64,000 nt of DNA from Pandoraea capi (GTDB taxonomy: Bacteria > Pseudomonadota > Gammaproteobacteria > Burkholderiales > Burkholderiaceae): positions 62,001 to 126,000 of the forward strand of contig NZ_CABPRV010000009.1 of NCBI RefSeq assembly GCF_902459735.1. Reading direction: 5' to 3'. Shown here piece by piece: positions 5,450 through 42,926 of the stretch. The notes under the pieces were generated by a model that searched no databases, was not told the DNA's origin, and saw only the letters and a list, made by a program, of their open reading frames with translations. Numbering within the stretch: the first letter of the stretch is position 1; each line of letters begins with the position of its first letter. A program made the position numbers and the translations under genes.

Positions 5450-5563
5450 TCAATAGCGATAGCAGCAACGATGTCCGTAATAGCCCCCGTAATAAGGCCG
5501 CTCCGGAACGACGACACATCCGGCAAGGGTAATGGCAAGCAACGCAGCAACGACTAACTTCAT
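5450..5563 (-). CDS. Very small lipoprotein (37 residues)
   Basis: A minus-strand frame from ATG at 5563 to TGA at 5450-5452. The N-terminus MKLVVAALLAITLAGC is a lipoprotein signal with a clear lipobox (LAGC), leaving a mature peptide of 22 residues rich in Tyr, Gly and Cys (PYYGGYYGHRCCYRY). A GGAG site lies eight bases before the ATG, which supports translation. Its size resembles small entericidin-like or osmotically induced lipoproteins, but I do not recognise the family. The gene stands alone between a terminator and the regulatory stretch upstream. Confidence 0.7.
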   Translation of the reverse strand: MKLVVAALLAITLAGCVVVPERPYYGGYYGHRCCYRY

Positions 5564-5690
5564 GATCTGACTCCACAGGGACGAACGCGAATCCGTTCGC
5601 TTTCTTTATATCGTCGCGGCTGTAGGAAGCCCATCACGTGTCTGTAAGCCGTGTAAGCGAAGGTTGCCAAACGGGGAATGTGTCGCACTT

Positions 5691-5724
5691 TGTTACGTAA
5701 CGCGGTGGGCGTGTGTTCGTAACA
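5691..5724 (+). promoter_or_regulatory. Paired upstream activator sites for the sigma-54 promoter
   Basis: Two related dyads, TGTTACGTAAC (5691-5701, with a perfect GTTACGTAAC core) and TGTTCGTAACA (5714-5724), have centres 23 bases apart, about two helical turns. They end 73 bases before the sigma-54 promoter at 5797, the usual place for enhancer-binding-protein sites. The protein that binds them is not encoded next door. Confidence 0.55.
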
Positions 5725-5796
5725 TCGCCCGATAGCGGCATTCCACGCATCTGCGAAAACCCAATAAATACGGGGCTTTCTCAAGTTTCGTGTCGC

Positions 5797-5812
5797 TGGC
5801 ACAGCGCTTGCA
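5797..5812 (+). promoter_or_regulatory. Sigma-54 (-24/-12) promoter
   Basis: TGGCACAGCGCTTGCA matches the sigma-54 consensus TGGCACG-N4-TTGCA at all but one position with exact GG-to-GC spacing. Transcription is predicted to start near 5823 on the plus strand. No protein start follows at a sensible distance before a terminator, so the product appears to be a non-coding RNA. Confidence 0.8.
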
Positions 5813-5822
5813 TAGTCATAAG

Positions 5823-5904
5823 CGTCGCCCTTTCAATTGCCCCGAAGAGTGCGGCTTTGACTCAAACCCTCCTCCCGTTGCAGACACGGGAGGAGGCTTT
5901 TTTT
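5823..5904 (+). ncRNA. Predicted sigma-54-dependent small RNA, about 80 nt
   Basis: The segment starts about 12 bases after the -12 element and ends at the T-run of an intrinsic terminator. The first 45 bases look largely unstructured. The terminator's left arm contains CCUCCUCCCG, complementary to Shine-Dalgarno sequences, so the RNA could pair with ribosome-binding sites if this arm opens. No frame with a good ribosome site lies inside. Promoter, upstream dyads and terminator are directly visible; the RNA itself and any targets are inference. Confidence 0.65.
5868..5904 (+). terminator. Rho-independent terminator of the predicted small RNA
   Basis: A perfect 10-base stem, CCTCCTCCCG (5868-5877) with CGGGAGGAGG (5887-5896), a 9-base loop, then C and seven Ts. 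No protein gene precedes it on the plus strand for several hundred bases, so it serves the transcript from the sigma-54 promoter. Confidence 0.9.
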
Positions 5905-6270
5905 CAAATCTCTCCGATCCTTGCCGGAACCTGTTTCCGACAAGCGATCGCGCCAATTTCCTGCACCGTGAATGTGCAGGCGCATTCGTATTCCTATTTC
6001 ATCTGTGCGTTTGAAATGTATCGACGCTATAACGGCGTCGACTTCCTATGCGATTCATTTATCTTTAAAGCCTTATTGGATGCGGTTTTCGAAGCGATTC
6101 CCCTTGGCATCGGCATAAACCAGATGCGGGTAGGCACCGATCTCAAGTTGCCTATTTCGCTGTCGTAATCGCGTCTATAGAGGACTGCGTTCTCAATTGG
6201 GGGGGCACGCAGATCCCTTTCGTGACGGCCGCACGACACGCGCCGGGGCAAGCGTCTCAGGGGAATAGTC
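5905..6270. other. Leader/promoter stretch of the chemosensory operon
   Basis: No gene seen; the plus-strand frame across it lacks a ribosome site and family character. Two small dyads are present: CCTGCAC/GTGCAGG (5960-5980) and TCGACGC/GCGTCGA (6021-6041), neither followed by a T-run. AT content is higher than average between 5990 and 6170, where the receptor gene's promoter should lie. I could not find a flagellar sigma-28 element. Confidence 0.45.
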
Positions 6271-7968
6271 ATGGAAATCGCCACGCCTGAATTCCAGATG
6301 GAACAACAGGAACTACAGGCCGTCACCGCCGCACTCAACCGCGTGCAGGCCGTCATCGAGTTCGACTTGCAGGGTCGCATTCTTCACGCCAACGAGAATT
6401 TCCTGCAAACGGTCGGTTACCGGCTCGACGAAATTCAAGGCCAGCATCACCGGATGTTTTGCGAGCCGGACTACGCGGCGTCCAGCGCGTATCGCGATTT
6501 CTGGGCCAAGCTCGGCCGTGGCGAGTTCGATGCGGGCGAGTACAAGCGCCTCGGCAAAGGCGGGCGCGAAGTGTGGATCCGCGCCTCGTACAACCCGGTG
6601 TTCGACGCGAACGGTGTCGCTTACAAGGTCATCAAGTTCGCCACCGACGTCACGGCGGATCGCACGCGTCAGGCCGAGTTCGAGGGCAAGGTGCGCGCGA
6701 TGGACATCGCACAGGCCGTCATCGAATTCAACCTCGACGGCACCGTGATCACGGCCAACGACAACTTTCTGAAAACGCTCGGCTACTCGCTCGACGAGAT
6801 TCGCGGCAAGCACCACCGCGTGTTCTGCGAGTCGGATTACGCGGCGTCCAATGCCTACCGCGAGTTCTGGGCCAAGCTCAATCGCGGCGAATTCGACGCC
6901 GGCCGCTACAAGCGTCTTGGCAATGGCGGACGCGAAATCTGGATTCAGGCGACCTACAACCCGATCCTCGACGCGAACGGCCGGCCATACAAAGTCGTGA
7001 AGTTCGCCACGGACATCACGCAGCAAGTCGAGCTGGAAGCCAGCGTGAAGCGACGCGCCGAGGAAGATCAGCGCAAAGTGGCGTTGCTGCTCGACACCGT
7101 CAACCGTGCGGCCGCCGGTGATCTCACGGGTGAGATCGCGGTAGCGGGCACCGACCCCATCGATCAACTGGCCGACGGCATTCGCCACATGATGGACGAC
7201 CTGCGTGGCGTGATCGGCAAGGTCGTCAATTCGGCAGGCGAATTCTCGGGCGCGTCGCGCGACATCGCCGACCGGGCCAATACCGTGGCGACGGGCGCTC
7301 AGGCGCTGGGCGCGACGGTGGAGGAAATGAACGCGTCCATCGAAGAACTCACGGCGTCGATCAACTCGATTGCGGACAACACCAAGGGCGCCGACCAACT
7401 CGCCAAGTCGACCCAGCAGGAAGCGGAAACCGGCTCGCGCGCCATCGCCCGCTCGATCGAAGCGATGGAGCTGATCAACAAGTCGTCGGAAGACATCGGC
7501 GAGATCGTGAAGGTGATCGGCGAGATCGCCGGGCAAACCAACCTGCTCGCGTTCAACGCAGCCATCGAAGCGGCGCGCGCCGGTGAGCACGGTCTCGGCT
7601 TCTCGGTCGTGGCCGACGAAGTCCGTAAGCTCGCCGAACGCTCGTCGCAGGCGACCAAGGAAATTTCCAAGCTCATCAACGAATCGACCAAGCGTGTCGC
7701 GCAGGGCAGCGATGTGTCGCGTCAGGCCGGAGAAGCGTTCGAGAAGATCGTGAACGGTGTATCGCGCACCACGCAGGCGATTTCCGAGATTTCGTGCGCC
7801 GCCGAGGAACAACTCGTGGCGGCACGCGAAGTGAGCCTTGCCATCCAGCACGTCGCGGAAGAGACGGAGAAGTCGGCAGGTGCCTGCGAGACGATCGCGC
7901 AGGCAACGACCGGGTTGAATCAGGAGGCCGAGGCACTCGATCGCACCGTGTCTAGATTCAAGGTGTAA
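6271..7968 (+). CDS. Soluble methyl-accepting chemotaxis protein with two PAS domains
   Basis: A 565-residue receptor without any membrane segment or signal peptide. Two PAS/PAC units (about residues 20-130 and 142-252) are near duplicates: each has IEFxLxGxIxxANxNFL, HHRxFCExDYAAS, GEFDAGxYKRLGxGGRExWI and a KFATDxT end. A HAMP-like linker and a long signalling coiled coil follow, with the conserved tip [20 protein letters not shown]. No C-terminal CheR-tethering pentapeptide is present. The architecture resembles BdlA, the Pseudomonas biofilm-dispersal receptor. It heads an operon with cheR, cheD and cheW, so it is probably methylated and deamidated by its neighbours. The ligand or redox cofactor is unknown. 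Confidence 0.92.
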
Positions 7969-39111: not shown

Positions 39112-41070
<1,959 letters not shown>

Positions 41071-41201
41071 TGGTCGTCTCCCCCGTGCCGGGTGATCTGA
41101 TGATCTTGTCGTCGTTCCCGAAGCATCTCCCATGCCGGGGGCGTTTGCAATGCGCGATGTCAATCGGAAGACGCCAGCCGATTGAGGGCCTCGGGCAGGC
41201 T

Positions 41202-41405: not shown

Positions 41406-42926
41406 ATGCGATACACGCCTCCCGGCACGCCCGGTGCCCTGCTGACCCTGCAACCGCGTTACGAGAACTTCATCGGCGGAAAATTCGTGCCCCCGGTGGA
41501 GGGTCGTTACTTCGTCAACACCTCGCCCGTGACCGGCGCAGTCATCGGCGAATTCCCGCGCTCCAATGGCGCCGATATCGAACTGGCGCTCGATGCGGCA
41601 CACGCCGCGGCCGCCAAATGGGGGAAGACGTCCGTTCAGGCGCGCTCGCGCATTCTGTTGCAGATTGCCGATCGTCTCGAATCGCAACTGGAGCGCTTCG
41701 CCGTGGCGGAGACGTGGGATAACGGCAAACCGGTGCGCGAAACGCTCGCGGCCGACCTGCCGCTCGCCGTCGACCACTTCCGCTATTTCGCCGGGTGCAT
41801 CCGCGCACAGGAAGGCACCGCCGCCGAGATCGACGAGCATACGGCCGCGTATCACTTCCATGAGCCGCTGGGTGTCGTCGGTCAGATCATTCCGTGGAAT
41901 TTCCCGCTACTGATGGCCGCGTGGAAGCTCGCCCCGGCGCTGGCAGCTGGCAACTGCGTGGTGCTCAAGCCCGCCGAGCAAACGCCGCTCACGATCACGC
42001 TGTTCGCCGAACTGGTCGGCGATCTGCTGCCGCCCGGCGTGCTCAACATCGTGCAGGGTTTCGGCAAGGAAGCCGGCGAGGCGCTGGCGACGAGCAAGCG
42101 CATCGCCAAGATCGCGTTCACCGGATCGACACCGGTCGGGAACCACATCCTCACGCGTGCCGCCGCCAACCTGATTCCGAGTACGGTCGAGCTGGGCGGC
42201 AAGTCGCCGAACATCTTCTTCGACGACATCATGCGCGGCGAGCCCGAGTTCGTGGAAAAGGCCGCAGAAGGTCTCGTGCTGGGCTTCCTCAATCAGGGCG
42301 AGGTGTGCACCTGCCCGTCGCGTGCGCTCGTGCAAGAATCGATCTACGAGCCGTTCATGGAAGTGGTGATGAAGCGTGTCGAGCGCATCAAGCGCGGCGA
42401 TCCGCTCGACACCGACACAGCCGTCGGCGCACAGGCCTCGCAGCAGCAATTCGACAAGATCCTCACGTACCTCGACATCGCGCGCAAGGAAGGCGCACAG
42501 GTGCTCACGGGCGGAGGGATCGAGATGCTGGACGGACCGCTCGCCAGCGGCTTCTACATCCAGCCGACGCTGCTCAAGGGCGATAACCGCATGCGCGTGT
42601 TCCAGGAAGAAATCTTCGGCCCGGTCGTCGGTGTAACGACATTCAAGGACGAAGCCGAAGCGCTCGCCATCGCGAACGACACCGAGTTCGGACTCGGCGC
42701 AGGCGTGTGGACACGCGACATCAACCGTGCCTACCGTATGGGCCGCGGCATTCAGGCCGGACGCGTCTGGACCAACTGCTATCACCTCTATCCGGCGCAC
42801 GCAGCGTTCGGTGGTTACAAGAAGTCGGGCATCGGCCGTGAAACACACAAGATGATGCTCGATCACTATCAGCAGACGAAGAATCTGCTCGTGAGTTACG
42901 ACGTCAATCCGCTCGGCTTCTTCTGA
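41406..42926 (+). CDS. NAD-dependent aldehyde dehydrogenase (AcoD/ExaC type)
   Basis: A 506-residue class-3 ALDH-fold enzyme that oxidises acetaldehyde and similar aldehydes to acids. Motifs: [21 protein letters not shown] (NAD site), [20 protein letters not shown] (Glu), [11 protein letters not shown] (catalytic Cys about residue 302) and EEIFGPVV. Length and the EVCTCPSR block match the AcoD/ExaC group. It follows a sigma-54 promoter and precedes an iron-type alcohol dehydrogenase, so the pair would oxidise an alcohol to an acid. The activator is next door. Confidence 0.94.

Follow-up and report, generated by a model that had tools for sequence, protein, structure and literature searches.

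A conserved unit for a predicted sigma-54-driven small RNA in Pandoraea, with control sites resembling those beside Tad pilus genes

Results and discussion

A conserved unit between a lipoprotein-like ORF and a chemoreceptor gene

Within the window, i.e. the whole 64-kb stretch of DNA analysed, sequence comparison confirmed positions 5691–5904 as a conserved unit of upstream sites, a −24/−12 promoter, a predicted RNA of about 80 nt, and a terminator (Table 1). The best reading is that the RNA belongs to a new family of sigma-54 sRNAs, with members seen in Pandoraea alone. We propose, with a probability of roughly two in three for the model as a whole, that the sRNA belongs to the regulon of a GtrR-type, Tad-linked activator and acts by antisense pairing through its loop.

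Table 1. Coordinates of the predicted sRNA unit and associated features (window positions unless a contig or locus is given)
Feature	Position	Strand	Remarks
Lipoprotein-like ORF	5450–5563	minus	37 aa, read from sequence
UAS1, palindrome TGTTACGTAACG, predicted enhancer site	5691–5702		0.94 identity, 25 sequences
UAS2, half-site CGTAACATC	5718–5726		22 bp from UAS1 half-site; 0.94 identity
CAATAAATACGGGGCTTT, possible bending/accessory site, tentative	5762–5779		resembles CAAATAAATACAGGCTTT of the Tad-linked promoter (side-by-side reading)
Sigma-54 −24/−12 promoter TGGCACAGCGCTTGCA	5797–5812	+	exact match; 0.83 identity over 5796–5813
Predicted sRNA, about 80 nt	5822–5904	+	start predicted from −12 spacing; covariance model, 26/32 Pandoraea
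5′ hairpin SL1 (GUCGC...GCGGC)	5824–5855	+	paired in 98.6% of cells; double change (U-A to C-G) in one pair
Unpaired loop AAUUGCCCC, predicted pairing seed	5835–5843	+	UGCCCC invariant in 24/24 sequences, divergent G015 included
Rho-independent terminator, CCUCCUCCCG (5868–5877) in 5′ arm	5868–5904	+	paired in 99.6% of cells; double changes in two pairs
CGGGGCAA, complementary to loop UUGCCCCG, weak candidate target	6244–6251	+	chemoreceptor leader
Sigma-54 activator gene	C2:748846–750336		same strand as the Tad genes, 3′ of them
Tad-linked sigma-54 promoter with YGTTAC/GTAACR array	L130:4411–5005 (G000:C2:764410–765004)		highly conserved

The span 5564–6270 is flanked by a divergent lipoprotein-like ORF of 37 amino acids and by a PAS/MCP chemoreceptor gene (6271–7968), 3′ of which CheR-, CheD- and CheW-type genes are found. 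As an earlier, sequence-only reading had held, this 0.7-kb stretch contains no convincing gene between the ATG of the lipoprotein-like ORF and the chemoreceptor start at 6271; despite two overlapping mechanical ORFs (5560–5802, minus; 5713–6168, plus), the spacers of the unit vary freely in sequence and length among the aligned copies of different species. The −24/−12 element, described earlier as near-perfect, proved to be an exact match, and TGGCACAGCGCTTGCA is the only exact occurrence of TGGCACN5TTGCA in the window, where a Markov-1 simulation predicts 0.05 per 64 kb; with at most one mismatch, four matches were found vs. 1.43 expected. Across the genome, TGGCAYN5TTGC occurs at 49 sites, as compared to 19 for the reversed control, and a single such site taken alone is not rare. 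The GG-N10-GC promoter is kept directly 5′ of the predicted RNA, as expected for the class of sigma-54-driven sRNAs, and because its spacing is correct, +1 would be located at about 5822–5824. The sequence data support the stand-alone RNA of about 80 nt that had been proposed, and its transcription from this promoter is predicted.

Mean pairwise identity in 25 sequences, a set which omits the decayed G020 copy (L027) and G015, was 0.94 for UAS1, 0.48 for the 15 bp separating UAS1 from UAS2, 0.94 for UAS2, 0.48 for the spacer, 0.83 for the promoter, 0.50 for the gap, 0.92 for SL1, 0.70 for the linker and 0.86 for the terminator; 3′ of the terminator (5905–5953) it was 0.46.

Distribution of the RNA

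Of 61 genomes searched with the DNA sequence, 27 were matched, and these are of a single genus. The near relatives retrieved by DNA and pattern searches, among them P. aquatica, P. commovens, P. anapnoica and P. captiosa, are Pandoraea, and the window itself is from this genus. The DNA match in G013 comprises the upstream block only, that in G020 the upstream block and a fragment. A covariance model built from 24 copies and run on 398 genomes of the family detected the RNA in 26 of 32 Pandoraea genomes, 25 of them at 90 bits or above and G015 at 47.7 bits, with one sense-strand copy listed per genome, that of the window included. No match at threshold was obtained for the Pandoraea genomes G003, G013, G020, G024, G026 and G030. 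The alignments used comprise 24 rows each, A1 without L006, and A2 without L005 and L006 and with G015. The copy of G015 keeps the palindrome, the second half-site, the promoter and the loop UGCCCC, and its terminator has been rebuilt. In G020, promoter, UAS2, RNA (26.1 bits) and terminator are decayed and UAS1 is retained; G013 lacks both the RNA and a close chemoreceptor homologue.

The sequence-only reading had been staked on conservation of the promoter and hairpin in relatives and had proposed a covariance search across the Burkholderiaceae. Both elements are conserved within Pandoraea, but not across the Burkholderiaceae, and strong covariance matches among the 398 family genomes come only from Pandoraea. 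An RNA family extending beyond this genus was rejected: the single match outside Pandoraea among these genomes is weak (G162, 31.8 bits), and locus L080 is a terminator following a gene, without the loop. Weak minus-strand matches were likewise discounted as extra copies; they overlap sense copies and apparently represent the terminator in reverse orientation. A 26-base pattern gave 19 matches, 16 of them in Pandoraea; the other three (L032, L040, L046) were not accepted as family members and are taken as chance occurrences, since their covariance scores are 13–15 bits (L032, L046) or absent (L040). A literature search yielded no paper that we recognised as describing this Pandoraea RNA.

Structure and predicted mode of action of the RNA

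The consensus structure consists of SL1, with 10 pairs, and the terminator, in which a stem of 11 pairs (5868–5896) is followed by a T-run (5898–5904), in agreement with the intrinsic terminator proposed earlier. The folding z-score of the transcript is −3.3. In 21 distinct sequences, 99.1% of cells pair, vs. 97.4% in shuffles, and nine cells are changed on both sides, vs. 2.7; when the structure is slid along the alignment, paired cells drop to 49–69%. Two of the five covariation measures were not above shuffles; three pairs with both-side changes were reached in 124 of 500 shuffles, and the 13 additional pair types in 370. The part which is both conserved and single-stranded is the SL1 loop AAUUGCCCC, and antisense pairing through this loop appears to be the likeliest mode of action.

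Other functions were considered for the RNA and its hairpins. The CCUCC stretch noted in the sequence-only reading is present (CCUCCUCCCG, 5868–5877), but it is buried in the terminator stem, and the anti-Shine-Dalgarno action ascribed to it had to be abandoned, since these bases form the 5′ arm of that stem and pair in 99.6% of cells. A C-rich arm does occur in some form in all 24 copies of alignment A2; however, its C/U order drifts (CCUCCCCCC, CCCCUUCCC, CCCUCCCCC), the opposite arm compensating in two pairs, and in NfeR1 (αr14 RNA), according to the published portions available, the motif is unpaired. Wide translational control through this stretch is highly improbable. An RNA which functions mainly as a protein sponge, its C-rich loop titrating an RNA-binding protein instead of pairing with mRNA, is decidedly unlikely: the loop is more constant than the single candidate target examined, whose complement does not covary with it, but CrcZ-like sponges have repeated motifs as opposed to the single short loop of the Pandoraea RNA, and one 9-nt loop fits seed pairing. 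Scarcely tenable is the notion that there is no independent sRNA, promoter and hairpin serving instead as an attenuated leader for the chemoreceptor operon. The chemoreceptor gene does follow on the same strand about 370 bp downstream, but the unit is closed by a strong terminator, 5905–5953 is just 0.46 identical, and the chemoreceptor gene has a conserved upstream region of its own and is kept without the unit in G020, G024 and G026.

For antisense pairing through the loop, the leader of the adjacent chemoreceptor gene is a weak candidate target. CGGGGCAA stands 27 nt 5′ of the chemoreceptor start, and in 19 of 26 species leader and loop are complementary over no fewer than 8 nt, in 22 over no fewer than 7 nt. 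G015 lacks the complement; in G002, G006 and G018 it is weak, and G020 keeps it although the RNA is lost there; across species, no compensatory change accompanies changes in the loop. In a comparison with shuffled leaders, which took in 12 of the 26 loci (the complement count took in all 26), eight leaders beat 95% of their shuffled versions and four did not. In strength, the leader site ranks with the top 1.8% of 2130 windows of 120 nt and is therefore not specific. A search of the genome for the loop complement CGGGGCAATTGA with at most one mismatch gave 22 hits, one of which is the sRNA gene itself; on inspection, none of the other 21 was located at an evident start or ribosome-binding site.

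As a separate observation, the chemoreceptor leader (6150–6270) is strongly conserved over about 100 nt and holds CTCAAGTT-N12-GTCGTAAT, which resembles a FliA (sigma-28) promoter.

Upstream sites shared with a Tad-linked promoter

UAS1 (TGTTACGTAACG) is a near-perfect palindrome, and a like palindrome (CGTTACGTWACG or TGTTACGTAACA) is found in the Tad-linked sigma-54 promoter. The right half of UAS1 reads GTTACA, not GTAACR, in four of 25 copies (L017, L018, L023, L025). The sequence-only reading had described two related dyads two helical turns apart. The first is indeed palindromic, and the GTAAC half-sites are 22 bp apart in the window and, read by eye, 21–23 bp in relatives; the second, however, is merely a half-site, its left arm not being conserved. 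UAS2 is degenerate in G020 and G013, both of which have lost the RNA. Spacing and 0.94 identity are in keeping with upstream activator sites on one helical face, as expected for sigma-54-driven sRNA genes, and bear out the remote enhancer-like sites claimed before. The tentative accessory site CAATAAATACGGGGCTTT (5762–5779) is only partly conserved in other species.

Since UAS1 is kept in G013 and G020, which are without the RNA, it may serve the divergent lipoprotein gene. Apart from this, some 57 bp (5628–5684) in front of the same gene are 0.93 identical across 25 Pandoraea sequences, carry the direct repeat TGTAAGCCGTGTAAGC, and are kept where the sRNA is lost; a regulator of the divergent gene may bind there.

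GTAACRN15-18GTAACR occurs at four places in the genome, two of which are upstream of the sRNA and the Tad-linked promoters. Neither these pairs nor the palindrome with up to two mismatches are enriched genome-wide (4 vs. 21 and 36 vs. 87 in the reversed control, respectively). The match at C2:764416 belongs to the array CGTTACGTAACGTTACCCGTAACGCCCCCCGTAACG, whose half-sites are located 245–190 nt upstream of TGGCACACCTCTTGC, with one further half-site besides. When GTAACR/YGTTAC half-sites were counted within 260 nt upstream of the 49 TGGCAYN5TTGC sites, six were found at the Tad-linked promoter, three at the sRNA promoter, two at one site, one at each of seven sites, and none at 39, so that only the sRNA and Tad-linked promoters have at least three (Poisson expectation, 0.05 of 49 sites).

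The Tad-linked region was detected in 26 of 32 Pandoraea genomes, and in 25 of those 26 array and promoter occur together, the match in G017 being limited to the array part; in some genomes the palindrome is CGTTACGTTACG. G015, G024 and G026, missed by the DNA search, have a sigma-54-type site with a similar, diverged array beside the activator gene, and the Tad genes were checked in G015 and G024. In G024 and G026, the Tad-linked sites are present and there is no covariance match for the RNA. The Tad-linked promoter faces a 105-aa ORF without Pfam match and several repetitive glycine-rich lipoproteins (as read from sequence), with a MarR gene in between. The Tad/Flp cluster contains genes for Flp pilins, prepilin peptidase, RcpC/CpaB, T2SSE, T2SSF and Tad-family proteins, which are oriented opposite to this promoter. 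Because the control sites of the sRNA resemble those beside Tad pilus genes, we suggest that it may belong to a surface-attachment, perhaps quorum-sensing, programme.

A candidate activator

In the window's genome, a sigma-54 activator gene is located about 14 kb from the Tad-linked promoter. In G001, G009, G013, G015, G017, G020, G024 and G026, an activator that matches it in score and length class is found about 13–15 kb from the array and is the nearest activator gene listed in each of these eight other genomes. In a comparison of activators over nine genomes, the type, defined by score and length class, occurs in all nine, RNA-less ones included. The protein aligns with PDB entry 7vbs_A over residues 29–489 (E = 3.1e-179). 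Residues 3–9 of the 7vbs chain are MRNTPAI, and its 465 residues, less two leading ones, make 463; the published gtrR forward primer encodes MRNTPAI, and the length of GtrR is given as 463 (PMC8174753, in the part available). From the match of N-terminus and length we infer that 7vbs is GtrR, BCAL1536 of Burkholderia cenocepacia, and the window's genome would, by this match, encode a GtrR orthologue. GtrR is described as acting with the BDSF receptor RpfR, c-di-GMP lowering promoter binding by the complex (PMC12838280, available in part). The accessible portions of the literature yielded no DNA motif for GtrR, nor a binding motif for BerB or VpsR, and our comparison of activators in nine genomes singled out no single regulator.

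Assignment of the regulator to the Tad-linked activator is drawn only from shared sites and synteny. It would agree with the earlier view that the regulator is not adjacent, its proposed gene being in the Tad/Flp cluster. Control by carbon or nitrogen status, as had been envisaged, is not indicated, the shared sites pointing to the Tad-linked activator; what remains of that idea is the resemblance of the sites to CbrB subsites. It is accordingly conceivable, albeit unlikely, that the same sRNA responds to another activator, either a CbrB-like or DctD-like response regulator or a protein of the VpsR/BerB type, and the signal would therefore be carbon status, or c-di-GMP via a different receptor. 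CbrB, which activates CrcZ and CrcY, recognises TGTTAC and GTAACA subsites with 20–25 bp between centres (PMC6296734, in the portion available), a spacing also found for the Pandoraea sites at 5691, 5697 and 5719, the two GTAACR sites being 22 bp apart. Moreover, 11 of 16 activator matches in the genome are strong, including a VpsR-domain protein and, by reading, response-regulator types. However, CbrAB is described as exclusive of the Pseudomonads (abstract of PMC6296734), like sites occur at the Tad-linked promoter, and the nearest listed activator is 13–15 kb away in the eight other genomes. Ten of the 11 strong activators were compared with NCBIfam; among the best 25 entries per protein, in listings without a CbrB model, none was named CbrB.

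The window has a sigma-54 activator gene of its own (39112–41163, minus strand), of AcoR type by reading, beside an apparent aldehyde dehydrogenase gene (41406–42926). It was rejected as the regulator, as nothing links it to the sRNA unit: near it there is just one TGTTACGTCTCA site with two mismatches, and sites with up to two mismatches number 36, vs. 87 in the reversed control. Elsewhere in the genome, two divergent sigma-54 activator genes coding for 487 and 317 amino acids lie back to back (L086, G000:C2:445500–450500), and a pair of similar spacing is also present in G013.

Comparison with known systems

The Qrr, GlmY/Z and CrcZ families are included in Rfam. Searching Rfam 15 gave no family over the gathering threshold at the unit, and for the window only two tRNAs, so that membership in an Rfam family was rejected; a permissive scan of 5600–5960 gave five matches, all far below gathering, the best with E = 0.17. 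Qrr of Vibrio, which is controlled by LuxO, and GlmY/NrsZ resemble the Pandoraea RNA in being driven by a sigma-54 activator, intergenic, and probably antisense-acting, and a link to quorum sensing would be a further likeness to Qrr if the GtrR link holds. The activator family of Qrr and GlmY/NrsZ differs from that proposed here, and the Pandoraea RNA has one copy listed in the window's genome and no Rfam match over threshold. With about 80 nt, it is also much shorter than CrcZ.

The literature considered, in the portions available, comprised PMC10117139, PMC6296734, PMC7377471, PMC10746234, PMC10253847, PMC5552954, PMC9684580, PMC11722255, PMC12316311, PMC12838280, PMC8174753 and PMC5295037. 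As far as these sources go, CrcZ and CrcY of Pseudomonas share with the Pandoraea RNA a stand-alone gene, a sigma-54 promoter, and TGTTAC/GTAACA-type subsites about two helical turns apart. The published order for CrcZ and CrcY control by CbrB is one forward and two reverse subsites, whereas in the Pandoraea unit the forward and the first reverse subsite abut; unlike CrcZ and CrcY, the Pandoraea RNA has sites in common with a Tad-cluster promoter. The Cuckoo/αr14 (NfeR1) and CcsR RNAs and the Pandoraea RNA all contain CCUCCUCCC. In αr14, as published, the motif is placed within unpaired parts of three hairpins, whereas in the Pandoraea RNA it is paired in the terminator stem; CcsR RNAs are described as co-transcribed with a DUF1127 gene, whereas the Pandoraea unit of about 80 nt has no gene between promoter and terminator. 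Membership in the Cuckoo/αr14 and Cuckoo/CcsR groups was rejected on these two grounds, respectively. NcS25 and BrrF are sRNAs of Burkholderia also reported in Pandoraea, and their loci differ from the unit by the published descriptions; according to the available part of the NcS25 paper, no sigma-54-like motif was found upstream of ncS25. The toxic RNA bdhR1 is listed as RF02278 in Rfam. The proposed activator, aligned over most of its length with 7vbs (presumably GtrR), would connect the unit with the GtrR (BCAL1536)-RpfR regulon, in which our literature search found no sRNA.

Proposed model and implications

In the model we favour, an enhancer-binding protein of the GtrR type, its gene located in the Tad/Flp cluster, would bind YGTTAC-GTAACR sites about 80–105 bp upstream of −24 and open the sigma-54 promoter. 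The resulting transcript of about 80 nt would expose AAUUGCCCC on its 5′ hairpin and end in a terminator hairpin. Its UGCCCC loop is predicted to pair with G-rich leaders (GGGGCA) and might adjust some mRNAs in step with expression of the Tad-linked lipoproteins, the neighbouring chemoreceptor mRNA being one possible target. A tentative extension, rather doubtful at present, is a Qrr-like arrangement in which the GtrR-type activator, responding to BDSF and c-di-GMP, induces both the sRNA and the Tad-linked lipoproteins, and the RNA lowers chemotaxis expression at settling.

To our knowledge, sigma-54-driven sRNAs are few, and through each of them a global signal is coupled to post-transcriptional control. 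The RNA predicted here would be a new addition to this class, with an unusual regulatory link. Pandoraea would have an sRNA family whose enhancer motif can be identified, YGTTACGTAACR being a testable prediction of the binding site of a GtrR-type activator, and for which a candidate activator is named, so that an RNA arm of a Tad-pilus or quorum-sensing sigma-54 regulon would become directly testable.
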